Assembly: GCF_900163655.1 (NCBI RefSeq) | Contig: NZ_FWFG01000013.1 | Coordinates: 1 to 64,000 of the forward strand | Origin: Brachybacterium nesterenkovii | GTDB taxonomy: Bacteria; Actinomycetota; Actinomycetes; Actinomycetales; Dermabacteraceae | Direction: 5' to 3' | Length of the DNA: 64,000 bases | In this document: positions 1,905 to 12,313 of the stretch, in pieces | Layout of the letters: every line of letters starts with the position of its first letter | Position numbering within the stretch: the first letter of the stretch is position 1 | Program-made: the position numbers and the translations under genes | Notes under the pieces: generated by a model | Databases searched by the model: none | What the model was told of the DNA's origin: nothing | What the model saw: only the letters and a program-made list of their open reading frames with translations

Positions 1905-3209
1905 ATGACCACCACCGCCCCGGCCCGCTACACCGATGCCGATGCCGAGCGCTGGGCCCTCGAGGCGCCCAAGTCCCGCACCCGCACGCCCTTCCAGCGC
2001 GACCGCGCCCGCGTGCTGCACTCCTCGGCCCTGCGCCGTCTGGGCGCCAAGACGCAGGTGCTCGGCGCGGGCTCCGACGACTTCGTCCGCACCCGCCTCA
2101 CCCACTCCCTCGAGGTCGCGCAGGTGGGCCGCGATATCGCCGCCGAGCTCGGCTGCGACCCCGATGTGGTCGACGCGGCCTGCCTCTCGCACGACATGGG
2201 CCACCCGCCCTTCGGTCACAACGGCGAGAAGGTGCTGGACGCGCTCGCCGACGCCATCGGCGGCTTCGAGGGCAACGCACAGACGCTGCGCCTGCTCACC
2301 CGGCTCGAGCCCAAGATCGTCGGCGACGAGCGGCCCTTCGGGCTGAACCTCACCCGGGCCGCCGTCGATGCCGCGATCAAGTACCCGTGGACGCGGGGCG
2401 CCGGCCCCGACCCCGCCTCCCCGAAGTTCGGCGCCTACGAGGACGACCTCGACGTCTACCGCTGGGCTCGCGCGGGCGCGCCCGAGGGCCGCAAGTGCGT
2501 CGAGGCCCAGGTCATGGACGCCTCCGACGACATCGCCTACTCCGTCCACGACATCGAGGACGCGGTGACGGGCGGGAGCCTGGACCTGGCGCGCCTGGCC
2601 GATCCGCTCGAGCGCAGCGCCGCCCTGTACGTCGTGCAGGACTGGTACCTGCCCTCCCGCGACATCGCGGAGCTCGACGAGGCCCTCGCACGGCTCGAGG
2701 CCGAGCCGTGGTGGATCGGGGAGTTCACCGGATCCATGCGCTCGGCCGCGGCGCTCAAGGACATGACCAGCCAGCTCATCGGCCGCTTCACCGGATCCGT
2801 CGTTGAGGCCACGCGGGAGGCCCACGGCACTGCCCCGCTCGCCCGCTTCTCCGGCGACCTTGTGGTGCCCGATGCGACGGCCGTCGAGATCGCCGTGCTC
2901 AAGGGCCTCGCCGCCGCGTACGTCATGTCCTCGGCCTCCCAGCAGCCGGTCTACGAGCAGCAGGAGCGGATCCTCCGCGACCTGCACGCCGCCCTGTGGA
3001 ACACGGGCGCCGCGCATCTGTCGCCGCTGTTCGCGGAGCTGTGGCATGCGGCGCCGGACGATGCGGCGCGCCACCGGGTGATCATCGACCAGCTCGCCTC
3101 GTACACGGACGTCACCGCCCGGCGCCTCCACGAGACGCTGTACGTCGACTCCTCGACCCACATGACCGCCGCGGACCTGCCCCTGCCGGGGCTCGGATCG
3201 GAGCTGTGA
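1905..3209 (+). CDS. dgt: Deoxyguanosinetriphosphate triphosphohydrolase-like protein
   Basis: A 434-residue HD-domain protein expected to hydrolyse dNTPs to nucleosides plus triphosphate, helping to control nucleotide pools. The metal-binding HD motif is in LSHDMGHPPFGHNGE (H96, D97), and the first HD-box histidine is in RLTHSLEV. The frame is open far upstream to 1125 through dusB, but the family N-terminus (YTDADAERW) and the position 2 nt after the dusB stop fix the start at 1905. The stop overlaps the dnaG ATG (TGATG), suggesting translational coupling. Confidence 0.92.
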   Translation: MTTTAPARYTDADAERWALEAPKSRTRTPFQRDRARVLHSSALRRLGAKTQVLGAGSDDFVRTRLTHSLEVAQVGRDIAAELGCDPDVVDAACLSHDMGHPPFGHNGEKVLDALADAIGGFEGNAQTLRLLTRLEPKIVGDERPFGLNLTRAAVDAAIKYPWTRGAGPDPASPKFGAYEDDLDVYRWARAGAPEGRKCVEAQVMDASDDIAYSVHDIEDAVTGGSLDLARLADPLERSAALYVVQDWYLPSRDIAELDEALARLEAEPWWIGEFTGSMRSAAALKDMTSQLIGRFTGSVVEATREAHGTAPLARFSGDLVVPDATAVEIAVLKGLAAAYVMSSASQQPVYEQQERILRDLHAALWNTGAAHLSPLFAELWHAAPDDAARHRVIIDQLASYTDVTARRLHETLYVDSSTHMTAADLPLPGLGSEL

Positions 3210-5191
3210 TGGCAGGCCAGGGGCTGATCAAGCGCGAGGACGTCGAGCTCGTGCGCTCGACCGCGCGGCTCGAGGAGGTCGTCGGCGACCACGTGACGCT
3301 GCGGACCGCCGGGATCGGCTCGATGAAGGGACTGTGCCCCTTCCACGACGAGAAGACCCCGAGCTTCCACATCCGCCCGCAGCTGGGTCACTGGCACTGC
3401 TTCGGCTGCGGCGAGGGCGGGGACGTCATCTCCTTCGTCCAGAAGATCGATCATCTGACGTTCGTCGAGGCGGTGGAGACCCTCGCCGGGCGCTACGGCG
3501 TGCAGCTGCACTACGAGGAGGCCACGGGGCGGCGCGGCGGGGGAGAGCGCACCGACTTCGGCACCCGCCAGCGCCTGCTGGATGCCCACGACGTCGCCGA
3601 GCAGTTCTACCGCGAGCAGCTCTCGACGCCCGCCGCGGGGGTGGGCCGGCGCTTCCTGGCCGAGCGCGGCTTCGACCGCGCGGCCGCCGAGCACTTCGGC
3701 GTCGGCTTCGCCCCCGAGGGCTGGGACGCGCTCCTGAAGCACCTGCGCGGACGCGGCTTCACCGAGCCCGAGCTCGTCGCGAGCGGCCTCGTCTCCCAGG
3801 GCCAGCGCGGCGTCTACGACCGCTTCCGCGGCCGCCTGGTCTGGCCGATCCGGGACATCACCGGCAAGACCATCGGCTTCGGGGCGCGCCGCCTGCTCGA
3901 GTCCGACCAGGGGCCCAAGTACCTCAACACCCCCGAGACGCCCATCTACCACAAGTCCCAGGTGCTCTACGGCCTCGACCTCGCGCGCAAGCAGATCGCC
4001 AGCGAGCACAAGGTGGTCGTGATGGAGGGGTACACCGATGTCATGGCGGCGCACCTCGCGGGTGTGACCACGGCCGTCGCCTCCTGCGGTACGGCCTTCG
4101 GCGCCGACCACATCAAGATCGTGCGGCGCGTCATGGGCGACTCCTCCAGCTCGGCGGGCCTGCGGCTCTCAAGCGACACCCGCGGCCTCGGCGGCGAGGT
4201 CATCTTCACCTTCGACGGCGACGCCGCCGGCCAGAAGGCCGCGCTCAAGGCCTTCGACGAGGACCAGCGCTTCGTGGCCCAGACGTACGTGGCCGTCGAG
4301 CCCGGCGGCATGGATCCGTGCGAGCTGCGCATCGCCCAGGGCGATGAGGCCGTGCGCGAGCTCGTGGCGACCAGGCGGCCCCTGTTCGAGTTCGCGATCC
4401 GCTCCGTCCTCGACCAGGTGGATCTCGACACGGTCGAGGGCCAGGTGAGCGCCCTGCGCATGGCCGCCCCCGTCGTCGCGAAGATCCGCGACCGCGCCAT
4501 GCGCCCGGAGTACGCGCGGCGCCTGGCCGGGTGGCTGGGCATGGACGAGCGGACCGTGCTGCGGGCCGTGCACGATGCGGGCCGCACCGCGGGCTCCGGG
4601 GGCGGACGCCACGCGGCCGCAGAGCCGGCCCCGGGAGCCGAGCGCCCCGACCCGGAGGGCGAGGACACCGGTGCGCTGCCGATCCCGCGGCTGAAGGACG
4701 TGGTGAGCCCCCGCGATCCGGTCGGCCTGGTGGAGATACAGTCCCTCGCGGTCATGCTCCAGTTCCCGACGTTGCTGGACGTCGACGCGGTGGGCGCCCT
4801 GCCCGATGACTCTTTCCACGTCCCCGCGCTGCAGGGCGTCTGGGACGTGATGCTCGCGGCCGGCACCCTGCTGGACGCCGTCGGCGGCTCGCTCGAGCCC
4901 GCCCGCTACCTCGACCAGGTGCTCGAGATCGCGGGGGAGACGGTGCGGCCGCTGATCGTGGAGCTCGCGACCTCCGAGCTGCCCGCCCGCGACGAGGACG
5001 GGCTGCGCCGCCTGGCGACCTCGCTGCTGGGACGGCTCACGGAGCTGTCGTTCACCCGGGAGTACTCCGTGCTCAAGCAGAAGCTGCAGCGCACGGACCC
5101 GTCGCGAGACCCCGAGGGGTATCAGCGGATCATGACCCAGCTGTCCGAGCTGCAGGAGCGGCGCCGGGCGCTGCGGGCGCAGAGCGACTGA
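3209..5191 (+). CDS. dnaG: DNA primase
   Basis: This 660-residue protein synthesises RNA primers at the replication fork. The N-terminal CHC2 zinc-finger residues lie in LCPFHDEKTP and HWHCFGCGEGGD (from C43). The TOPRIM catalytic motifs are VVMEGYTDVM and FTFDGDAAGQ, and a helicase-binding C-terminal region follows a Gly/Ala/Pro-rich linker near residue 470. Between the two TOPRIM motifs, after VRRVMGD, there is a Ser/Gly-rich stretch (SSSSAGLRLSSDTRGLGG) that looks longer than in many primases; it stays in frame. The start is the ATG overlapping the dgt stop. Confidence 0.95.
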   Translation: MAGQGLIKREDVELVRSTARLEEVVGDHVTLRTAGIGSMKGLCPFHDEKTPSFHIRPQLGHWHCFGCGEGGDVISFVQKIDHLTFVEAVETLAGRYGVQLHYEEATGRRGGGERTDFGTRQRLLDAHDVAEQFYREQLSTPAAGVGRRFLAERGFDRAAAEHFGVGFAPEGWDALLKHLRGRGFTEPELVASGLVSQGQRGVYDRFRGRLVWPIRDITGKTIGFGARRLLESDQGPKYLNTPETPIYHKSQVLYGLDLARKQIASEHKVVVMEGYTDVMAAHLAGVTTAVASCGTAFGADHIKIVRRVMGDSSSSAGLRLSSDTRGLGGEVIFTFDGDAAGQKAALKAFDEDQRFVAQTYVAVEPGGMDPCELRIAQGDEAVRELVATRRPLFEFAIRSVLDQVDLDTVEGQVSALRMAAPVVAKIRDRAMRPEYARRLAGWLGMDERTVLRAVHDAGRTAGSGGGRHAAAEPAPGAERPDPEGEDTGALPIPRLKDVVSPRDPVGLVEIQSLAVMLQFPTLLDVDAVGALPDDSFHVPALQGVWDVMLAAGTLLDAVGGSLEPARYLDQVLEIAGETVRPLIVELATSELPARDEDGLRRLATSLLGRLTELSFTREYSVLKQKLQRTDPSRDPEGYQRIMTQLSELQERRRALRAQSD

Positions 5192-5215
5192 CGCGCCGGG
5201 TGCCCCGCATGCCTC

Positions 5216-6739
5216 TCACTGGTACGAGACGAACCAGGGCCGGGGCTCGATCGCGTAGGTCTCCTCGGGCGTGAACGTCGGCGTGTCCTCGTCGTAGAAG
5301 TTCTTCCAGGACATCACGATCCCCGGCGGCAGGTCCTTCTGGAGGTTCTGCCAGGTCCCGAGCTTCAGGTCGGGGGTGCCGTGACCGTCCGCGTGCACGG
5401 TGATCGCCAGCTCGTGCCGGGAGGTGTCGATGCTCTGGCGGTCGCTGATCATGGAGCGGCTGAACTGGTGGAGGATCAGGACCTTCTGGGGCAGTTCCCG
5501 GTCGCGGGTGAGGTCGGCCAGCCAGCTCGCGGTCTCGTTGATCTCGGCCCCGGTCACCGTGCCGATCTGCTCCAGGTGCACCTCGTCCGGGGCGAGGCGC
5601 CACTCGGAGTCCAGGGCGAGCCCCACATGCGGCTCGGCCAGCAGCTCCTCGAACACCTTCGCCTGGGTGAGGAAGTCGGTGCGGCCCGGCTGCAGGTCGA
5701 GCACCACGTAGACGCCGGCGGCACCGGCCGCGTCGACCCAGGGCCGCAGCGTCGCCGGGTCGATGGTGGTCGAGTAGTCGTTGTCGGGGCCGGGCTGCGA
5801 GGACGCGACGGTCGCGATGATCTCCAGGGCGGGGATCACCGGGAGATCAGAGAAGGGCTCGTACTCCGCGGCGAGCTCCTGGGTGCGCCGGATGGTCGCC
5901 TCGAGGTCCTGCTCGCCGAGCACGCCGAGCGAGGGGATGCCGGGGGAGCCGTAGGTCGCCACCATGCGGCGGGATGTGAACGCCGTCTGCCCGCCGCCCG
6001 GCAGCTCCGCCGCCGTCAGCGCCATGGCGAGGCGGGCGGTCAGCGTCTCGGTGCTGCCGCAGGGCTCGCCGACTGCGAGGACGCCGCGCGCGGGGTCCTC
6101 GCCCGCGGCCTCGCGGACGGCGGCGACCGTGTCGGAGGTCGAGCGGGGATCGCCTCCGGCGCAGTCGACGATGCGTGCACCGCCCGCCGTCGCGTTCGCG
6201 CGGGCCACCGTGCACGCCGGGGTCGGGACGCCCGGGTCTAGGACGAGCGCGAGCGGGGCGGGGCGGTCATCGGCCGTCACCGCGGGGAGGGTCTTCGCGG
6301 CGTCGGCCGCCGCCGGGTCCACCTCGAGGACCTCGCGGTCCCCGGCCACGGACGCCACGTCGGTACCCGGGGCCGTCACGACGGTGCGGGCGCCCAGACG
6401 CTCGAGCTGCTCGGCGACCTGGGGCGTCGTCCCCACGAGAAGCGGGATCCGTGCATCGCCCAGGATGGTGGCGAAGGCCTCCGCGGTCTCCTCGCTCGCC
6501 ACCGCGACGGTGCGGGCGCTCGAGAAGACGGCCGCGACGACGGCGATGGAGACGTCCGTGGGGGAGGCGGCGCCCAGGCCGGTCGTCACCGGTGCCTCCT
6601 CGGCCATCACCAGATCGGCGTCGCGATCCTCGCAGGCGACCAGAGCGCTCGCCAGAGCGGCGACCGGGACGGCCGCGAGAGAGGCCCGCAGTACAGCGCG
6701 ACGGCAGACGGGGCGACGATGGACGGTGCGGCGGCTCAT
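5216..6739 (-). CDS. Putative secreted lipoprotein of unknown function
   Basis: About 507 residues from the ATG at 6737-6739; two GTG codons just upstream (6742, 6745) are alternative starts. The N-terminus has several Arg pairs, a hydrophobic segment and a lipobox ending ALVAC (C36), so it is likely exported and lipidated. The first half has repeated Ala/Val-rich blocks of alternating character (such as ARTVVTAPGTD) that loosely resemble cell-wall-binding type 2 repeats. The second half (VYVVLDLQPGRTDFL, VGLALDSEWRL, IVMSWKNFYDE) looks like an alpha/beta barrel with Asp/Glu-containing strands, possibly glycosidase-like. No enzymatic role can be assigned. It is convergent with dnaG. Confidence 0.72.
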   Translation of the reverse strand: MSRRTVHRRPVCRRAVLRASLAAVPVAALASALVACEDRDADLVMAEEAPVTTGLGAASPTDVSIAVVAAVFSSARTVAVASEETAEAFATILGDARIPLLVGTTPQVAEQLERLGARTVVTAPGTDVASVAGDREVLEVDPAAADAAKTLPAVTADDRPAPLALVLDPGVPTPACTVARANATAGGARIVDCAGGDPRSTSDTVAAVREAAGEDPARGVLAVGEPCGSTETLTARLAMALTAAELPGGGQTAFTSRRMVATYGSPGIPSLGVLGEQDLEATIRRTQELAAEYEPFSDLPVIPALEIIATVASSQPGPDNDYSTTIDPATLRPWVDAAGAAGVYVVLDLQPGRTDFLTQAKVFEELLAEPHVGLALDSEWRLAPDEVHLEQIGTVTGAEINETASWLADLTRDRELPQKVLILHQFSRSMISDRQSIDTSRHELAITVHADGHGTPDLKLGTWQNLQKDLPPGIVMSWKNFYDEDTPTFTPEETYAIEPRPWFVSYQ

Positions 6740-6823
6740 CACCACTGCACCCTAACCGCCGCCCGGTCGGTGCTCGGGGACGCCGACCGGACGTTCGGGG
6801 AGGTGTTCAGGATGTTGCGCGGC

Positions 6824-7585
6824 TCAGCCCGCGGACCAGCCGCCGTCGCAGGGGATGATCGCGCCGTTCACGTTCGAGGACTCGTCGGCGATCAGGAAGG
6901 CGACCAGGGCGGCGAGCTCCGTCGGCTCCGCATTGCGGATCGCGGTCTGATGCACCGGGGTGATCGCTCCCATGCCTGCCTGGTCGATCTTCGACGGGTC
7001 GATCGAGTCCATGATGTTCGTGGCGACGCCGCCGGGCAGGACCGCGTTGGTGCGGACGCCCTGGCGGGCGTACACGTACGCGGTGTTGCGGGTCAGGCCC
7101 ACGACGCCGTGCTTGGACGCGGTGTAGGCGGCGCCCGCGGCCGCGCCGCGGATACCGGCCTCCGAGGCGATGTTGACGATGGATCCGCCGCCCGCCTCGA
7201 GCATCGCCGGGAGCACCGCACGGGTGAGCAGGAACGGCGCGGTGAGGTTCACGCGCAGGCAGCGCTCCCAGGTCGCGTCGTCGGTCTCGCCCGCCCCGGC
7301 GAACACGTCCATCACGCCGGCGTTGTTCACGAGGCCGCGGAGGGGACCGTGCGCGGCCGCCTCGGCGACGACGGCGTCGACCACCGCGGTATCGGAGATG
7401 TCCCCGACGGATGCCGACGCAGAGCCGCCCGCCTCCTCGATCAGTCGCACCGTCTCCCCGGCGGTCTCCGCGTTCAGGTCGGAGACCACGGCGTGGGCTC
7501 CGAGGGCGGCGACCTGCAGGGCGCTCGCGCGGCCGATACCCGATCCCGCCCCGGTGATGATCACGCTGCGGCCCTGTGCGATCAC
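6824..7585 (-). CDS. SDR-family NAD(P)-dependent oxidoreductase
   Basis: A 253-residue classical short-chain dehydrogenase. The cofactor loop is TGAGSGIGRAS (from about residue 11), NNAGV is the NNAG motif, and the catalytic residues are in IASEAG (Ser) and YTASKHG (Tyr, Lys). The PGGVATNIM segment follows, as in 3-oxoacyl-ACP-reductase-like members. The substrate is not predictable. It stands alone, about 80 bp downstream of the lipoprotein gene's 5' end, on the same strand. A tRNA gene lies directly upstream. Confidence 0.88.
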   Translation of the reverse strand: MIAQGRSVIITGAGSGIGRASALQVAALGAHAVVSDLNAETAGETVRLIEEAGGSASASVGDISDTAVVDAVVAEAAAHGPLRGLVNNAGVMDVFAGAGETDDATWERCLRVNLTAPFLLTRAVLPAMLEAGGGSIVNIASEAGIRGAAAGAAYTASKHGVVGLTRNTAYVYARQGVRTNAVLPGGVATNIMDSIDPSKIDQAGMGAITPVHQTAIRNAEPTELAALVAFLIADESSNVNGAIIPCDGGWSAG

Positions 7586-7609
7586 CGTACGCGGGCGGGA
7601 GATGAGCGG

Positions 7610-7683
7610 TAGCCCAGGCGGGGCTTGAACCCGCGACCGACGGATTATGAGTCCGCTGCTCTGACCGGCTGAGCTACTGGGCC
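7610..7683 (-). tRNA. tRNA with CAU anticodon (elongator Met or Ile2)
   Basis: A 74-nt cloverleaf read on the minus strand: acceptor GGCCCAG pairs with CTGGGCT (one G-U at 1-72), D-arm AGCTCAG, anticodon loop CTCATAA, T-loop GTTCAAG. No CCA is encoded (ACCG follows). The anticodon is CAU. C4-G69, C5-G68 and A73 resemble the identity elements of E. coli tRNA-Ile2, which is modified by TilS to read AUA, so it could be that tRNA rather than elongator Met. It is not the initiator, because the acceptor 1-72 is G-U and there is no three-GC anticodon stem. Confidence 0.92.
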
Positions 7684-7812
7684 GTGGCGCCCTGCGGCGC
7701 CCGGGGAAGCCTATCGCGCCGCCGATGGACCGAACTCCCCCTATCGCCCGTCGCCCGCGTGCGGGCGCGGCTAGGCTCGCAGCACCACCATCGGAAGGAA
7801 GCGCTCACGCTC

Positions 7813-9231
7813 ATGGGCCCGTACATCATCGCGGCGATCGCCGCCCTCGCCGTCCTCGTCGTCGCGGCGGTCCTGTTCGGCATCATCCGCAGCTGGATCA
7901 AGGTCGCCCGGGCGGACGAGGCCCTCATCATCTCCGGCAAGCCGCAGAAGGAGGACGACGGCGAGACGTACTCGACCACCGTCGTCGTCAACGGCAAGGC
8001 CGTCGTCAACCCGATCTCCCAGCGCTACGAGGTCATCTCTCTGCGCTCGCGCCAGGTGGTCATGAAGGCCGAGGCGCAGTCCTCGGACAATGTGACGCTG
8101 CTGGTCAGCGCGGTCGCGCAGCTCAAGGTCGGCTCGGACCGGGCGCTCGTGCGCGCGGCCGCCGAGCGCTTCGCATCCCAGGACGAGGCCATCGAGCGCT
8201 TCACCCAGGACCAGCTCGAGGGCGCTCTGCGCGGCGTCATCGCCCAGCAGACGGTCACGAGCCTCATGCGGGATCGCAAGCAGTTCTCCGAGGAGATCAC
8301 CGGCTCGGTCAAGCCCGAGCTGCAGGAGCAGGGCCTGATCCTCGACTCCTTCCAGATCACGTCCATCACCGACAACGTCGGCTACATCGCCTCGCTCGGC
8401 GCCCCCGAGATCGAGGCCAAGCGCCAGAGCGCGGAGATCGCCCAGACGAACTCCGAGCGCGCGATCGCCCGGCAGCGCCTGGCCAACTCCGAGCAGAACC
8501 TCATCGAGCAGACCGCCTACGAGACCAACCAGGCCAAGGCGTCCTCCGAGGTCGGCCGCGAGCAGGCCGCGGCGGAGCAGGCGCGCAACCTCGCCTCCGA
8601 GCAGGCCCGCCAGGCCGTGCTGAACCAGCAGGCGGAGAACAAGCAGTCGCAGCTCGACGCCGACGTCAAGCGCGTCGCCGACGCCGAGCTGTACCGGCGC
8701 CAGCAGGCCGCCGAGGCCGAGGCCTTCGAGCAGTCGCGGCAGGCGAAGGCGCGCGCCGAGATCGCCGAGCAGGACGCGACCGCGACCCGTCTGCGGGCCG
8801 AGGCGGAGGCGGACAGCGTGCGCCTCGCGGGCGAGGCGAAGGCCGCCGCCATCAAGGCGGAGGCCGATGCCCTGCGGGAGAACCTCGACGCGGTGCTCGC
8901 CCAGCGGGCCCTCGAGATCCTGCCCGAGATCATGCGCGAGTTCTCCGCGAACTACGCCAGGATCGGTGGCATCACCGTGATCGGCGGCTCCGAGGCGAGC
9001 GCGGGGGCCCAGGTCGCTGGGGAGCCCGCCCTCGCGATGGCCGGCATGTTCGAGAGCGTGAAGGCGGCGACCGGCCTCGACCTCGCCTCCCTCATCCAGG
9101 GGCGCGCGACGGGCGAGGCGGCTGGCGCCGCGATGGGGCAGGCGATGACGGGCGACCGGCGCGAGCACCGGCACGCCGGCACGGCGCCTGACGGCGGCTC
9201 GATGGCTGACGGCGCCGGAGTGTCGGACTGA
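7813..9231 (+). CDS. SPFH/flotillin-family membrane protein
   Basis: About 472 residues. One N-terminal membrane segment (YIIAAIAALAVLVVAAVLFG, residues 4-23) is followed by an SPFH domain (about 35-215), then a long Ala/Glu/Gln/Arg-rich coiled coil (about 215-390, many AEAEA and EQAR blocks) and a Gly/Ala-rich tail. This is the flotillin/YuaF-partner architecture, in which such proteins oligomerise on the membrane to organise lipid-protein domains. No NfeD partner lies next to it. The frame is open from 7684, but the ATG at 7813 places the membrane anchor at the N-terminus; the GGAAGGAA upstream is a little far (about 13 nt). Confidence 0.88.
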   Translation: MGPYIIAAIAALAVLVVAAVLFGIIRSWIKVARADEALIISGKPQKEDDGETYSTTVVVNGKAVVNPISQRYEVISLRSRQVVMKAEAQSSDNVTLLVSAVAQLKVGSDRALVRAAAERFASQDEAIERFTQDQLEGALRGVIAQQTVTSLMRDRKQFSEEITGSVKPELQEQGLILDSFQITSITDNVGYIASLGAPEIEAKRQSAEIAQTNSERAIARQRLANSEQNLIEQTAYETNQAKASSEVGREQAAAEQARNLASEQARQAVLNQQAENKQSQLDADVKRVADAELYRRQQAAEAEAFEQSRQAKARAEIAEQDATATRLRAEAEADSVRLAGEAKAAAIKAEADALRENLDAVLAQRALEILPEIMREFSANYARIGGITVIGGSEASAGAQVAGEPALAMAGMFESVKAATGLDLASLIQGRATGEAAGAAMGQAMTGDRREHRHAGTAPDGGSMADGAGVSD

Positions 9232-9270
9232 CCGGACCTCTGCTGCGGGGCAGGTCCCCGCATACGACGA

Positions 9271-9310
9271 CGAGCGCCCCGCCGATCCGAGAGGACCGGC
9301 GGGGCGCTCG
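9271..9310. terminator. Bidirectional hairpin terminator
   Basis: A perfect 14-bp stem, CGAGCGCCCCGCCG at 9271-9284 with its complement at 9297-9310, and a 12-nt loop. It sits between the convergent SPFH gene and the truncated disulfide-reductase gene, so it can serve both. Confidence 0.8.
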
Positions 9311-9328
9311 ACTGCGTCGGGGTCTGCG

Positions 9329-10405
9329 TCAGCTGAAGTTGTACTCCGTGACGATGGGCTCGCGGCCCGTCGCCTGATCGGTGAAGTACTCGTTCTCGCT
9401 GATGCCCAGGTACGAGCCGGAGATGTTGACGGCGTTGGGCCGGCCCAGCTGGTGGAGGGCGCGGACCATGTTGTACGAGCGCTGCGCGGAGCGGCAGTGG
9501 ACGTACACCGGCTGATCCGTCGGGATCTCGTCGAGGCGGTCGCGGAACTGCGAGAGCGGGATGTTCACGGCGTTGGTGATGTGCCCGGCCTCCCACTCGC
9601 CCTCCTCGCGGGCGTCGATGATGAACGCGCCCTTCTCGGAGAGCTCGCGCACGGCGGTGACCGGGACCTGCTCGAGCTCGCCGTGCAGCAGGTTCAGGCC
9701 CACCAGCGCGGCATGGATGACGACGTCCTTGGCTGTCGAGTACGTGGGGGAGTAGCACAGCTCGAGGTCGCGGAGGTCCTCGAGGGTGCCGTCCATCATC
9801 AGCAGGGTCGCGATGACGTCCACGCGCTTGTCCGCCGCGCCCTTGCCCACGGCCTGTGCGCCGAGGATCCGCCCGGTGGGCTTCTCGAACAGGAGCTTGA
9901 AGAACAGCGGCTGGGAGTCGGGCATGAGGCTCACCGAGTCCTGGGGGATCACGTACACGACGTCCCAGTCCAGCGTCGAGCTGCGCAGCTGCTTCTCGTT
10001 CAGGCCGGTGGATGCGGCCGTGTAGTCGAAGACCTGCACGACGAAGGAGCAGATCACTCCGCGGTTGCGGTTGGGGCGGCCGTACATGTGGTCCGCGGCG
10101 GCGCGCGCCTGGCGCTGGGCCGGGCCGGCCGTGGCCAGCCGGGTGGGCGTGCCGAGCAGCTTGTGCCACACCTCGATGGCGTCGCCCACGGCGTAGATCG
10201 ACGGATCGGAGGGGCGGTAGTTCGCGTCGACCTTGATGCCGCCGGTCTCGCCGATCTCGAGGCCCGCCTCGACGGCCAGCTTCGTCTCCGGGCGCACGCC
10301 GATCGCCATGATCACGGCCTGCGCGGGGTTGGTCCTCCCGGACTTCAGCGTCACGCCGTCCCCGGCGATCGTGGCGACGGCGTCGCCGAGGATCAGGTCG
10401 ACGCC
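9329..10405 (-). pseudogene. CoA-disulfide reductase-like / rhodanese fusion, 5'-truncated
   Basis: The C-terminal two thirds of an FAD-dependent pyridine nucleotide-disulfide oxidoreductase. It contains VIMAIGVRPETKL, the FAD-binding YAVGDAIEV, the dimerisation domain, and a C-terminal rhodanese domain with the Cys loop VYVHCRSAQRS. Such enzymes (about 550 residues) reduce CoA disulfide or related persulfides. The N-terminal FAD domain, with its GxGxxG and redox cysteine, is absent. Homology fades on the minus strand after EGVDLILGDAVATIAGDG, at about 10400-10405, where ABC permease sequence begins on the other strand. The only available start (GTG at 10354) would give a 341-residue protein with no N-terminal domain, so I call a pseudogene. 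Confidence 0.8.
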
Positions 10406-10468
10406 CTCGACTGCGCCCTCGTGCTCCTGGGGCGCATCCTCGTTCCCTGGCAGGGGAGGTCCCGATGA
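10406..10468 (+). pseudogene. Last codons of an ABC permease (TauC/SsuC type), otherwise deleted
   Basis: In the frame ending at the TGA at 10466-10468 the residues are LDCALVLLGRILVPWQGRSR. A terminal amphipathic helix followed by (L/V)xPW(x)G(R/K) is how TauC/SsuC-type permeases end. The stop overlaps the ATG of the substrate-binding-protein gene (ATGA), the usual coupling inside such operons. Everything upstream in this frame is antisense to the reductase fragment. Short, so moderate confidence. Confidence 0.55.
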
Positions 10469-11330
10469 TCCGCCGCTCCCGCTCTCGAGTCCGCACGGCG
10501 CTGGCCCTGGCAGGCGCCGCGCTGCTCGCCGTCTCCGCCTGCACCACCGCCCAGGAGGAGCAGGCGCGGCTGAACGGCGAGGCCGCCGCCTGCCCGGTCG
10601 AGCCTGATCCCAGCGTCCGCGCGACCGTGCGCATCGGCTGGCAGGCGATCCCCACCGGAGATCTCATCGTCCAGGAGCGCCATCTCCTCGAGTCGTGCCT
10701 GCCGAGCGCGACGATCCAGTGGGTGCAGTTCGACGGGGGCGACGACGTGGTCCAGGCGTTCGGCTCCGGGAGCATCGACCTCGGCATCTCCGGCTCCTCC
10801 GCCGCCGTGACGGCCATGAGCCCGCCTCTCGAGCTGCCCGTGCGCCTGGTGTGGATCGCCGACGTCATCGGCGCCTCCGAGGCCCTCGTCTCCCGCGACC
10901 CGTCGATCACGAAGCTCGAGGACCTGCGCGGCAAGAAGGTCGCTGTGACCTTCGGGGCCACCCGACCTTCGACCTCATCTCGGCGCGCGCGGAGTTCGTC
11001 GAGGCCGAGCCCGCGTTCATGGAGATGTGGACGCGCCTGCAGGACCATGCCGCGACCGAGATCGCCGAGGACCCCGACGCGACCGCGGAGTCGATGGCCC
11101 AGATGCTCGGCACCGATCCCCAGACGGTCCGCGAGCAGATGACGGGTTACTCCTACCCCGACGCCGCCGCCCAGGCCGGGCCGGACTACTTCGGCGGCGG
11201 CGTGGCCGGGAGCCTGCACTCGACCGCGGGCTTCCTCGGCGAGGTCGGCCTGACGGGCGGCGCCTCCTCCGAGGAGCACTACGAGCAGATCGTCTACCCC
11301 GATGCGATCCAGGAGGTCGCCGCCTCATGA
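10465..11330 (+). pseudogene. ABC substrate-binding lipoprotein (TauA/SsuA type) with internal deletion
   Basis: The first frame encodes a lipoprotein signal (lipobox AVSAC, C26) and the N-terminal lobe: RIGWQAIPTGD, FGSGSIDLGISGSSA, then KLEDLRGKKVAVTFGAT at about residue 165. At about 10955-10965 the family continues in another frame with PTFDLISARAEFVE and runs to the stop at 11328-11330. The segment that normally joins these parts (roughly 55-65 residues of the second lobe) is missing and the frame changes. A ligand-binding protein of about 330 residues should result, so this copy cannot fold normally. A good ribosome site (GGGGAGG) precedes the ATG at 10465. The likely ligand class is taurine/alkanesulfonate or nitrate-like. 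Confidence 0.82.
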
Positions 11331-12142
11331 CCGAGAGCATCGCCGACGCAGGCGCCGCCACCGAGACCGGCCCCGGCGGCATCCGCATCGAGGACGTCAC
11401 GCACTCCTACCGATCCACCTCGGGGGACGCCGTCCTCGCGCTCGACGACGTCGACCTCACGATCCCCGAGGGCGAGTTCCTCTGCCTCGTCGGCCCCTCG
11501 GGCTGCGGCAAGTCCACGCTGCTGAACATGGTGGGCGGCTTCCTCGCCCCGAGCAGCGGACGGATCCTGCGCGGGGGAGCGCCCATCACGAGCCCCAGCG
11601 CCGAGATCGGCGTCGTGTTCCAGAGCGCACCGCTGTTCCCGTGGCTCACCGTGCGCCAGAACGTCGAGCTCGGCCCCCGCTACCGCCGCAGGCCCCGCGA
11701 GGAGAGGCGCCGCCTGGCCGACGAGCACCTCGAGATCGTGGGGCTGTCGGAGTTCGTCGACGCCCGCCCCTACGAGCTCCCCGGCGGGATGCGCCAGCGC
11801 TGCCAGATCGCGCGCGTGCTGGCCCACGAGCCCCAGGTGATCCTCATGGACGAGCCCTTCGGGGCGCTCGACACGATCACCCGCGAGCGCCTCCAGCTCG
11901 ACCTCCTGCGCATCCACCAGGCACGGCGCACCACCGTCCTGTTCATCACCCACGGCGTCGACGAGGCCGTGCTGCTGGGCGATCGCGTGGTGGTGATGAG
12001 CCCGCGACCGGGGCGCGTGGTCCTCGACATCGACGTCCCCCTCGCCCGGCACCGCGACGCCGACGAGGCCCGCGACCTGCGCTCGCGACCGGAGTTCATC
12101 GCCCTGCGCGACGAGACCGCGGCCGCCATCCAGCCCTCGTGA
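11327..12142 (+). CDS. ABC transporter ATP-binding protein (TauB/SsuB type)
   Basis: A 271-residue nucleotide-binding subunit. Walker A is GPSGCGKST, the Q-loop is VVFQSAPLFPW, Walker B is VILMDEPFGALD, and the H-loop is FITHGVDEA. The ABC signature reads ELPGGMRQR, with Pro where LSGGxRQR normally has Ser. The ATG overlaps the stop of the broken binding-protein gene (ATGA). No permease gene follows; a tRNA comes next. The frame is intact, but its partners are ruined, so it is probably an orphan unless it serves another importer. Confidence 0.85.
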   Translation: MTESIADAGAATETGPGGIRIEDVTHSYRSTSGDAVLALDDVDLTIPEGEFLCLVGPSGCGKSTLLNMVGGFLAPSSGRILRGGAPITSPSAEIGVVFQSAPLFPWLTVRQNVELGPRYRRRPREERRRLADEHLEIVGLSEFVDARPYELPGGMRQRCQIARVLAHEPQVILMDEPFGALDTITRERLQLDLLRIHQARRTTVLFITHGVDEAVLLGDRVVVMSPRPGRVVLDIDVPLARHRDADEARDLRSRPEFIALRDETAAAIQPS

Positions 12143-12230
12143 CCGGGCGTGACGTCACGCACACCGGGCCCGGACGGGCCGATCCGGTTGGCGCCCATCG
12201 CGGAAGTCTTGGTATCGTCGTTCAGGTTGA

Positions 12231-12303
12231 TCCCGCGTAGCTCAATCGGCAGAGCATTCGACTGTTAATCGAACGGTTACTGGTTCAAGTCCAGTCGCGG
12301 GAG
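12231..12303 (+). tRNA. tRNA-Asn (GTT)
   Basis: A 73-nt cloverleaf: acceptor TCCCGCG with CGCGGGA, D-arm AGCTCAATCGGCAGAGC, anticodon arm TTCGACTGTTAATCGAA (anticodon GTT), T-arm ending GTTCAAGTCC, discriminator G. No CCA is encoded. Confidence 0.96.
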
Positions 12304-12313
12304 CTCTCCGAAC

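Follow-up and report, generated by a model that had tools for sequence, protein, structure and literature searches.

A probable deletion scar joins a truncated disulfide reductase gene to the tail of an ABC permease gene in a sulfur cassette of Brachybacterium nesterenkovii

How do the genes for an ABC transport ATPase and its binding protein come to stand without a permease gene, beside a disulfide reductase gene that has lost its beginning? The question is posed by a locus of Brachybacterium nesterenkovii within a stretch of 64,000 nucleotides (the window), which lies on contig C62 of a draft assembly (G000; 119 contigs, 99.98% complete). A sequence-only reading had proposed that a single deletion between two divergent genes removed both 5' parts. 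Comparison with relatives shows the underlying observation to be real and supports the mechanism. To judge from the sequence, the locus very probably holds deletion pseudogenes of a sulfur cassette, situated at a variable spot with a tRNA gene on either side; their junctions are known from this one draft assembly. A literature search, at the level of result lists, returned nothing on this locus.

The variable spot (7608-12304) is bordered on the left by a tRNA-Met gene (7608-7683, minus strand) and on the right by a tRNA-Asn gene (12231-12304, plus strand). The two genes are separated by 4.5 kb in the window, an interval taken up by the broken cassette together with a flotillin-like gene; the separation is about 0.2 kb in congener G008 and 1.4-2.8 kb in the five other congeners compared. 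The cassettes of G008 and a further congener, G032, lie far from the tRNA-Met and tRNA-Asn genes. At E<=1e-60 the flotillin-like gene (7684-9231) occurs in 13 of the 38 genomes of the genus, the window's own included, and its copy in G004 carries one in-frame TGA. Between the convergent ends of the flotillin-like and reductase genes is an inverted repeat (9264-9317; 25-nt arms, 84%), which by its position would be terminator-like.

The reductase gene (9329-10405, minus strand) retains a 3' part of 358 codons with a C-terminal rhodanese domain, as established by family profiles and alignment. Positions 206-437 of the 439 in TIGR03385 are matched at 183.9 bits, far short of the curated family score of 578.8. 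The Pyr_redox_2 match covers only profile positions 197-290 of 291 and is followed by the dimerisation (PF02852) and rhodanese (PF00581) domains, both above their own cutoffs. Homology to the G008 reductase begins at residue 208 (tblastn) or 205 (HMMER). The nearest known enzymes are the NADH-dependent persulfide and CoA-disulfide reductases with a rhodanese domain (TIGR03385 plus PF00581). Over its 358 residues the remnant shares 75-76% identity with the C-terminal parts of the G008 and G032 reductases and, like such enzymes, keeps the dimerisation and rhodanese domains and the CRS loop. Unlike them, it is without about 207 N-terminal residues, among them the FAD domain, its SFSNC motif and the beginning of the nucleotide-binding domains; the alignment begins past SFSNC, which we take to be the active-site cysteine motif. 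In PMC7969121, a rhodanese-domain cysteine is described as the first sulfur acceptor, and CoA as the carrier of sulfur from there to the N-terminal-domain cysteine beside FAD. A protein without its N-terminal FAD and cysteine domain should therefore not complete the catalytic cycle.

The junction itself was located at 10403-10411 by ungapped comparison with G008 and G032, protein alignment and reading of the minus strand, within a few bases of the break at about 10400-10405 proposed from the sequence alone. Reductase homology stops at 10403-10405 (GVD...) and permease homology starts at 10403-10406. Two residues upstream of the reductase edge the window frame has valine, against aspartate in 10 of 11 other rows. 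The sequence-only reading had called for a search for microhomology here; judged from the relatives, at most about 3-6 bp (10403-10408) are shared between the two sides, a possible microhomology only.

On the far side of the junction, the plus strand (10403-10468) encodes ALDCALVLLGRILVPWQGRSR followed by a stop. This stretch was identified, by alignment with 13 congener tails and by profile score, as the end of a TauC-type permease gene, its final 20-21 codons plus the stop. Its TGA (10466-10468) overlaps the ATG (10465-10467) of the tauA-like binding-protein gene. A permease frame lies directly 5' of the binding-protein gene at 13 loci of the genus, and the permease C-termini, for example ALDQVIVWIGRALVPWQGKEV in G008 and ALDGCIRWVGNRLVPWHGKV in G028, each before a stop, align column by column with the window tail. 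The tail is just 20-21 residues long, and a chance resemblance has to be considered on that account. A profile of 17 columns was built from the 13 congener tails, two rows of which are identical. The window tail scores 42.1, the highest among the 106,403 17-mers free of stops that the six frames of the whole window contain; the runner-up reaches 26.4 overall, and 9.9 among the 7,927 17-mers within 8 codons of a stop. The tail also stands in the correct place before tauA, with the stop/start overlap seen in G008. Coincidence is thus vanishingly improbable and is excluded for practical purposes, and the TauC-like C-terminus read from about 10406 onward is confirmed.

Within the genus, a close reductase is found in three of 38 genomes (G000, G032 and G008), and two others have homologues of 40-45%; at the DNA level, strong matches occur in two same-genus genomes and a weak one in G046, of another genus. 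The intact arrangement that the sequence-only reading had expected in some relative, a full reductase divergent from permease, binding protein and ATPase, is present in G008. Its locus (L029) carries a full reductase of 566 aa (6104-7804, plus strand), a YeeE/YedE gene of 452 aa (4709-6067, plus strand; PF04143, Sulf_transp) and, divergent from the reductase on the opposite strand, tauC-tauA-tauB. Window position 10405 pairs, without gaps, with L029 position 6728, and window position 10406 with 3649, so that by the G008 measure 3078 bp are missing. This segment of about 3.1 kb holds about 624 nt of the reductase gene, YeeE, intergenic parts and tauC minus its end. Because YeeE/YedE lies between them in G008, and the 3' end of YeeE persists in G032, the reductase and tauC genes were probably not adjacent before the deletion. 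The proposal of one deletion between divergent genes thus holds for their divergence and probably fails for their being neighbours.

The cassette of G032 (L028) is broken differently. There the reductase is full, but the last 41 YeeE residues (6660-6782) abut tauA at residue 117 (6657). The tauA gene of this locus (within L028:3560-6782) is also interrupted by an IS21-family element, with a transposase bearing Mu-transpos_C_2 and an IstB gene; a 5-bp CAGAC repeat can be read at its flanks. No TauC match was found in G032 at E<=1e-3. A DNA pattern for the conserved end of the tauC tail gave two matches there, with three mismatches each, which is no more than chance (4.3 expected), and the site expected for the tail in G032 is itself deleted. 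No relative was thus found that has the tail without a permease, an arrangement that would have spoken against a permease origin.

The missing parts were also sought in the window's own assembly. At E<=1e-10, G000 has no match to the reductase N-terminus, none to TauC on any contig, and none to tauA beyond the two fragments in the window. Neither of the two findings named in the sequence-only reading as counting against its proposal turned up. For YeeE, the same threshold yields a single distant and partial match on contig C98 (34%, residues 286-424 of 452), which was rejected as the missing gene for being incomplete and much weaker than the copy in G008. YeeE was probably lost here too.

The claim that an ATPase and a binding protein remain without a permease survives for the permease, given the absence of TauC from G000 at this threshold; the binding-protein gene, however, is itself broken. 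Its 5' part (10465-10964, plus strand) has 166 aligned codons and, by eye, a lipoprotein-like N-terminus, and corresponds to TIGR01729 positions 26-110 of 300 and to residues 47-203 of the G008 protein. Comparison with L029, L030 and L031 places a second junction at 10962-10967, beyond which the 3' part (10965-11330, plus strand) continues in another frame, matching TIGR01729 positions 178-281 of 300 and G008 residues 268-397. The missing segment measures 208 bp against L029, 208 bp against L030 and 205 bp against L031, none of them a multiple of three. This frameshifting deletion and the probable loss of YeeE had both escaped the sequence-only reading.

The tauB-like ATPase gene (11327-12142, plus strand), identified by family profile and alignment, is open over 271 codons. 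The full-length frame scores 233.5 bits against a cutoff of 357 for the taurine model, and its signature is LPGGM, against LSGGM in all 14 other rows. Identity is 58% to G032, 52% to G008 and 53-57% to other congeners, so the gene is not clearly nearer to the first two. At otherwise invariant sites the window shows nine changes (of 107), the G008/G032 pair together nine (of 110) and other single rows 0-4; when only one member of the pair is kept, the window stands at 11 changes to 10, or at 9 to 11. In the tauB tree, which carries a long-branch warning and yields no secure placement, the window branch measures 1.51. That leading to the G008/G032 pair is also long (1.28), and the long window branch is for this reason consistent with an old lineage. 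Accelerated decay of tauB was considered and set aside: the nine unique changes and the long branch vanish as evidence once the pair is counted like the window, and the signature change alone remains. In comparison with TauABC-type (NitT/TauT) importers, the window follows the congener order C-A-B, found in 13 of 14 congener loci (the exception is G032), with its tauC tail, tauA fragments and tauB. Unlike them, its tauC is cut to 20-21 codons, its tauA is frameshifted with 205-208 bp gone, and its tauB has LPGG. Taurine or sulfonate as substrate would be a name taken from the family models only.

The following course of events would account for the locus. (i) A sulfur cassette, with YeeE/YedE and a persulfide-type reductase divergent from tauC-tauA-tauB, would have entered the lineage and later been broken up. 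(ii) A single deletion of about 3.1 kb by the G008 measure would have run from about reductase codon 207 to 20-21 codons before the tauC stop. (iii) It would have taken the 5' part of the reductase gene, YeeE, the intergenic region and tauC except for those last codons, YeeE being presumed present in the immediate ancestor. (iv) The two remnants, each reading towards the lost start of the other, would thereby have been joined at about 10405. (v) A separate deletion of 205-208 bp would have broken tauA. The remnant products are most likely dead, since the reductase is without its FAD domain and cysteine motif and the transporter without its membrane subunit and a whole binding protein. Deletion pseudogenes are a known feature of bacterial genomes. 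As in other such cases, two truncated genes are joined here with little or no homology, an intact orthologous arrangement exists in a relative (G008), and the missing segment is found nowhere else in G000 at E<=1e-10. What sets this case apart is only the identity of the genes and the different break of the same cassette in a second species; the event amounts to ordinary gene decay.

One deletion is the simplest account, and a single event is what we infer. The same end state could have been reached in steps, YeeE and/or most of tauC having gone earlier and the present junction being the last of several overlapping deletions. Piecemeal loss has a precedent in G032, where the YeeE 3' end abuts mid-tauA and a separate IS21-family insertion is present, and the window has a second deletion in tauA; yet the junction bears no trace of YeeE or of other tauC parts, and one event yields an identical result. 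Stepwise loss is accordingly rather unlikely. It is improbable that the junctions are artefacts of assembly, with contig C62 skipping real sequence at both. A draft of 119 contigs, with two gaps within about 560 bp, invites the suspicion. On the other hand, the reductase N-terminus, TauC and further tauA sequence were found (E<=1e-10) on no contig of an assembly 99.98% complete. Assembler misjoins usually need longer overlaps than the few bases which, judged from relatives, are common to both sides of each junction. Elsewhere in the window, three of nine scanned ORFs (SDR, deformylase and KAS II) match family models almost end to end; for five, no family passes E<=1e-20, which leaves them uninformative, and the flotillin-like ORF, though it matches FloT only in part, can be aligned to 12 congeners across roughly residues 43-512 of 515. 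In G032, moreover, the cassette is broken another way on a single contig.

A different alternative concerns the fate of the reductase remnant after a deletion. Its 358 codons contain zero stops and zero frameshifts. At 281 sites conserved in a Firmicutes outgroup, lineage-specific changes number 15 in the remnant, 12 in G032 and 10 in G008; in a plain three-way count, the remnant differs alone at 42 sites, G008 at 23 and G032 at 19. An open frame with so few lineage-specific changes suggests that the deletion may be young, or that a short rhodanese protein may persist. Selection could not be read from dN/dS over the 358 codons (0.34 for window-G032, 0.19 for window-G008, 0.13 for G032-G008), values made unreliable by differing GC3 (0.98, 0.92 and 0.77 among the three), and the estimate was set aside. 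A shortened dimerisation-rhodanese protein would begin at the earliest in-frame ATG, GTG or TTG, a GTG at 10354, and its frame of 341 aa is open with the rhodanese loop HCRSAQRS intact. After residue 232 it has only two of the 15 lineage-specific changes; the relatives, however, split 16:6 at the same border, so that the 13:2 of the window is no real contrast. The original 5' side is deleted, and conserved redox positions have changed (e.g. G119C and S121F). Retention of such a protein has little likelihood, and loss of function remains the preferred reading.

The cassette itself was probably acquired horizontally. Its reductase occurs in few congeners, at differing sites, and its named relatives are from Firmicutes only, a pattern that suggests transfer. 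Seven loci with named reductases were found in genome contigs, all of them Firmicutes (60-68%), by a search that reaches close relatives only and may omit records near that of the window. Among plasmids, the G008 reductase at E<=1e-80 retrieved 327 records, all below 60% identity, and none is named as a source. In five of the seven Firmicutes loci the gene immediately upstream of the reductase is YeeE-like. In L047, from a Eubacteriaceae MAG, YeeE, reductase, tauC, tauA and tauB stand in a row on one strand (2342-8130). The pairing in Firmicutes and this full row indicate that the association is wider than the genus and that YeeE was probably present in the window's ancestor.

With the scar, the orphan ATPase and the headless reductase find an explanation; automated annotation could mistake either for a working gene. 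The locus also offers a clean case of a 20-residue tail correctly read as a gene remnant. The cassette, whose reductase has close relatives in only three of the 38 genomes searched in the genus (G000 included), is intact in G008 and broken differently in G000 and G032. A tentative extension is that YeeE, the persulfide reductase and the TauCAB-like importer, found side by side in G008 and in L047, form a functional sulfur module, in which the importer feeds a sulfur compound to the reductase, and that this module was lost independently in two species of the genus. If so, the 'taurine' transporter of the module would serve the reductase and not general sulfonate use.
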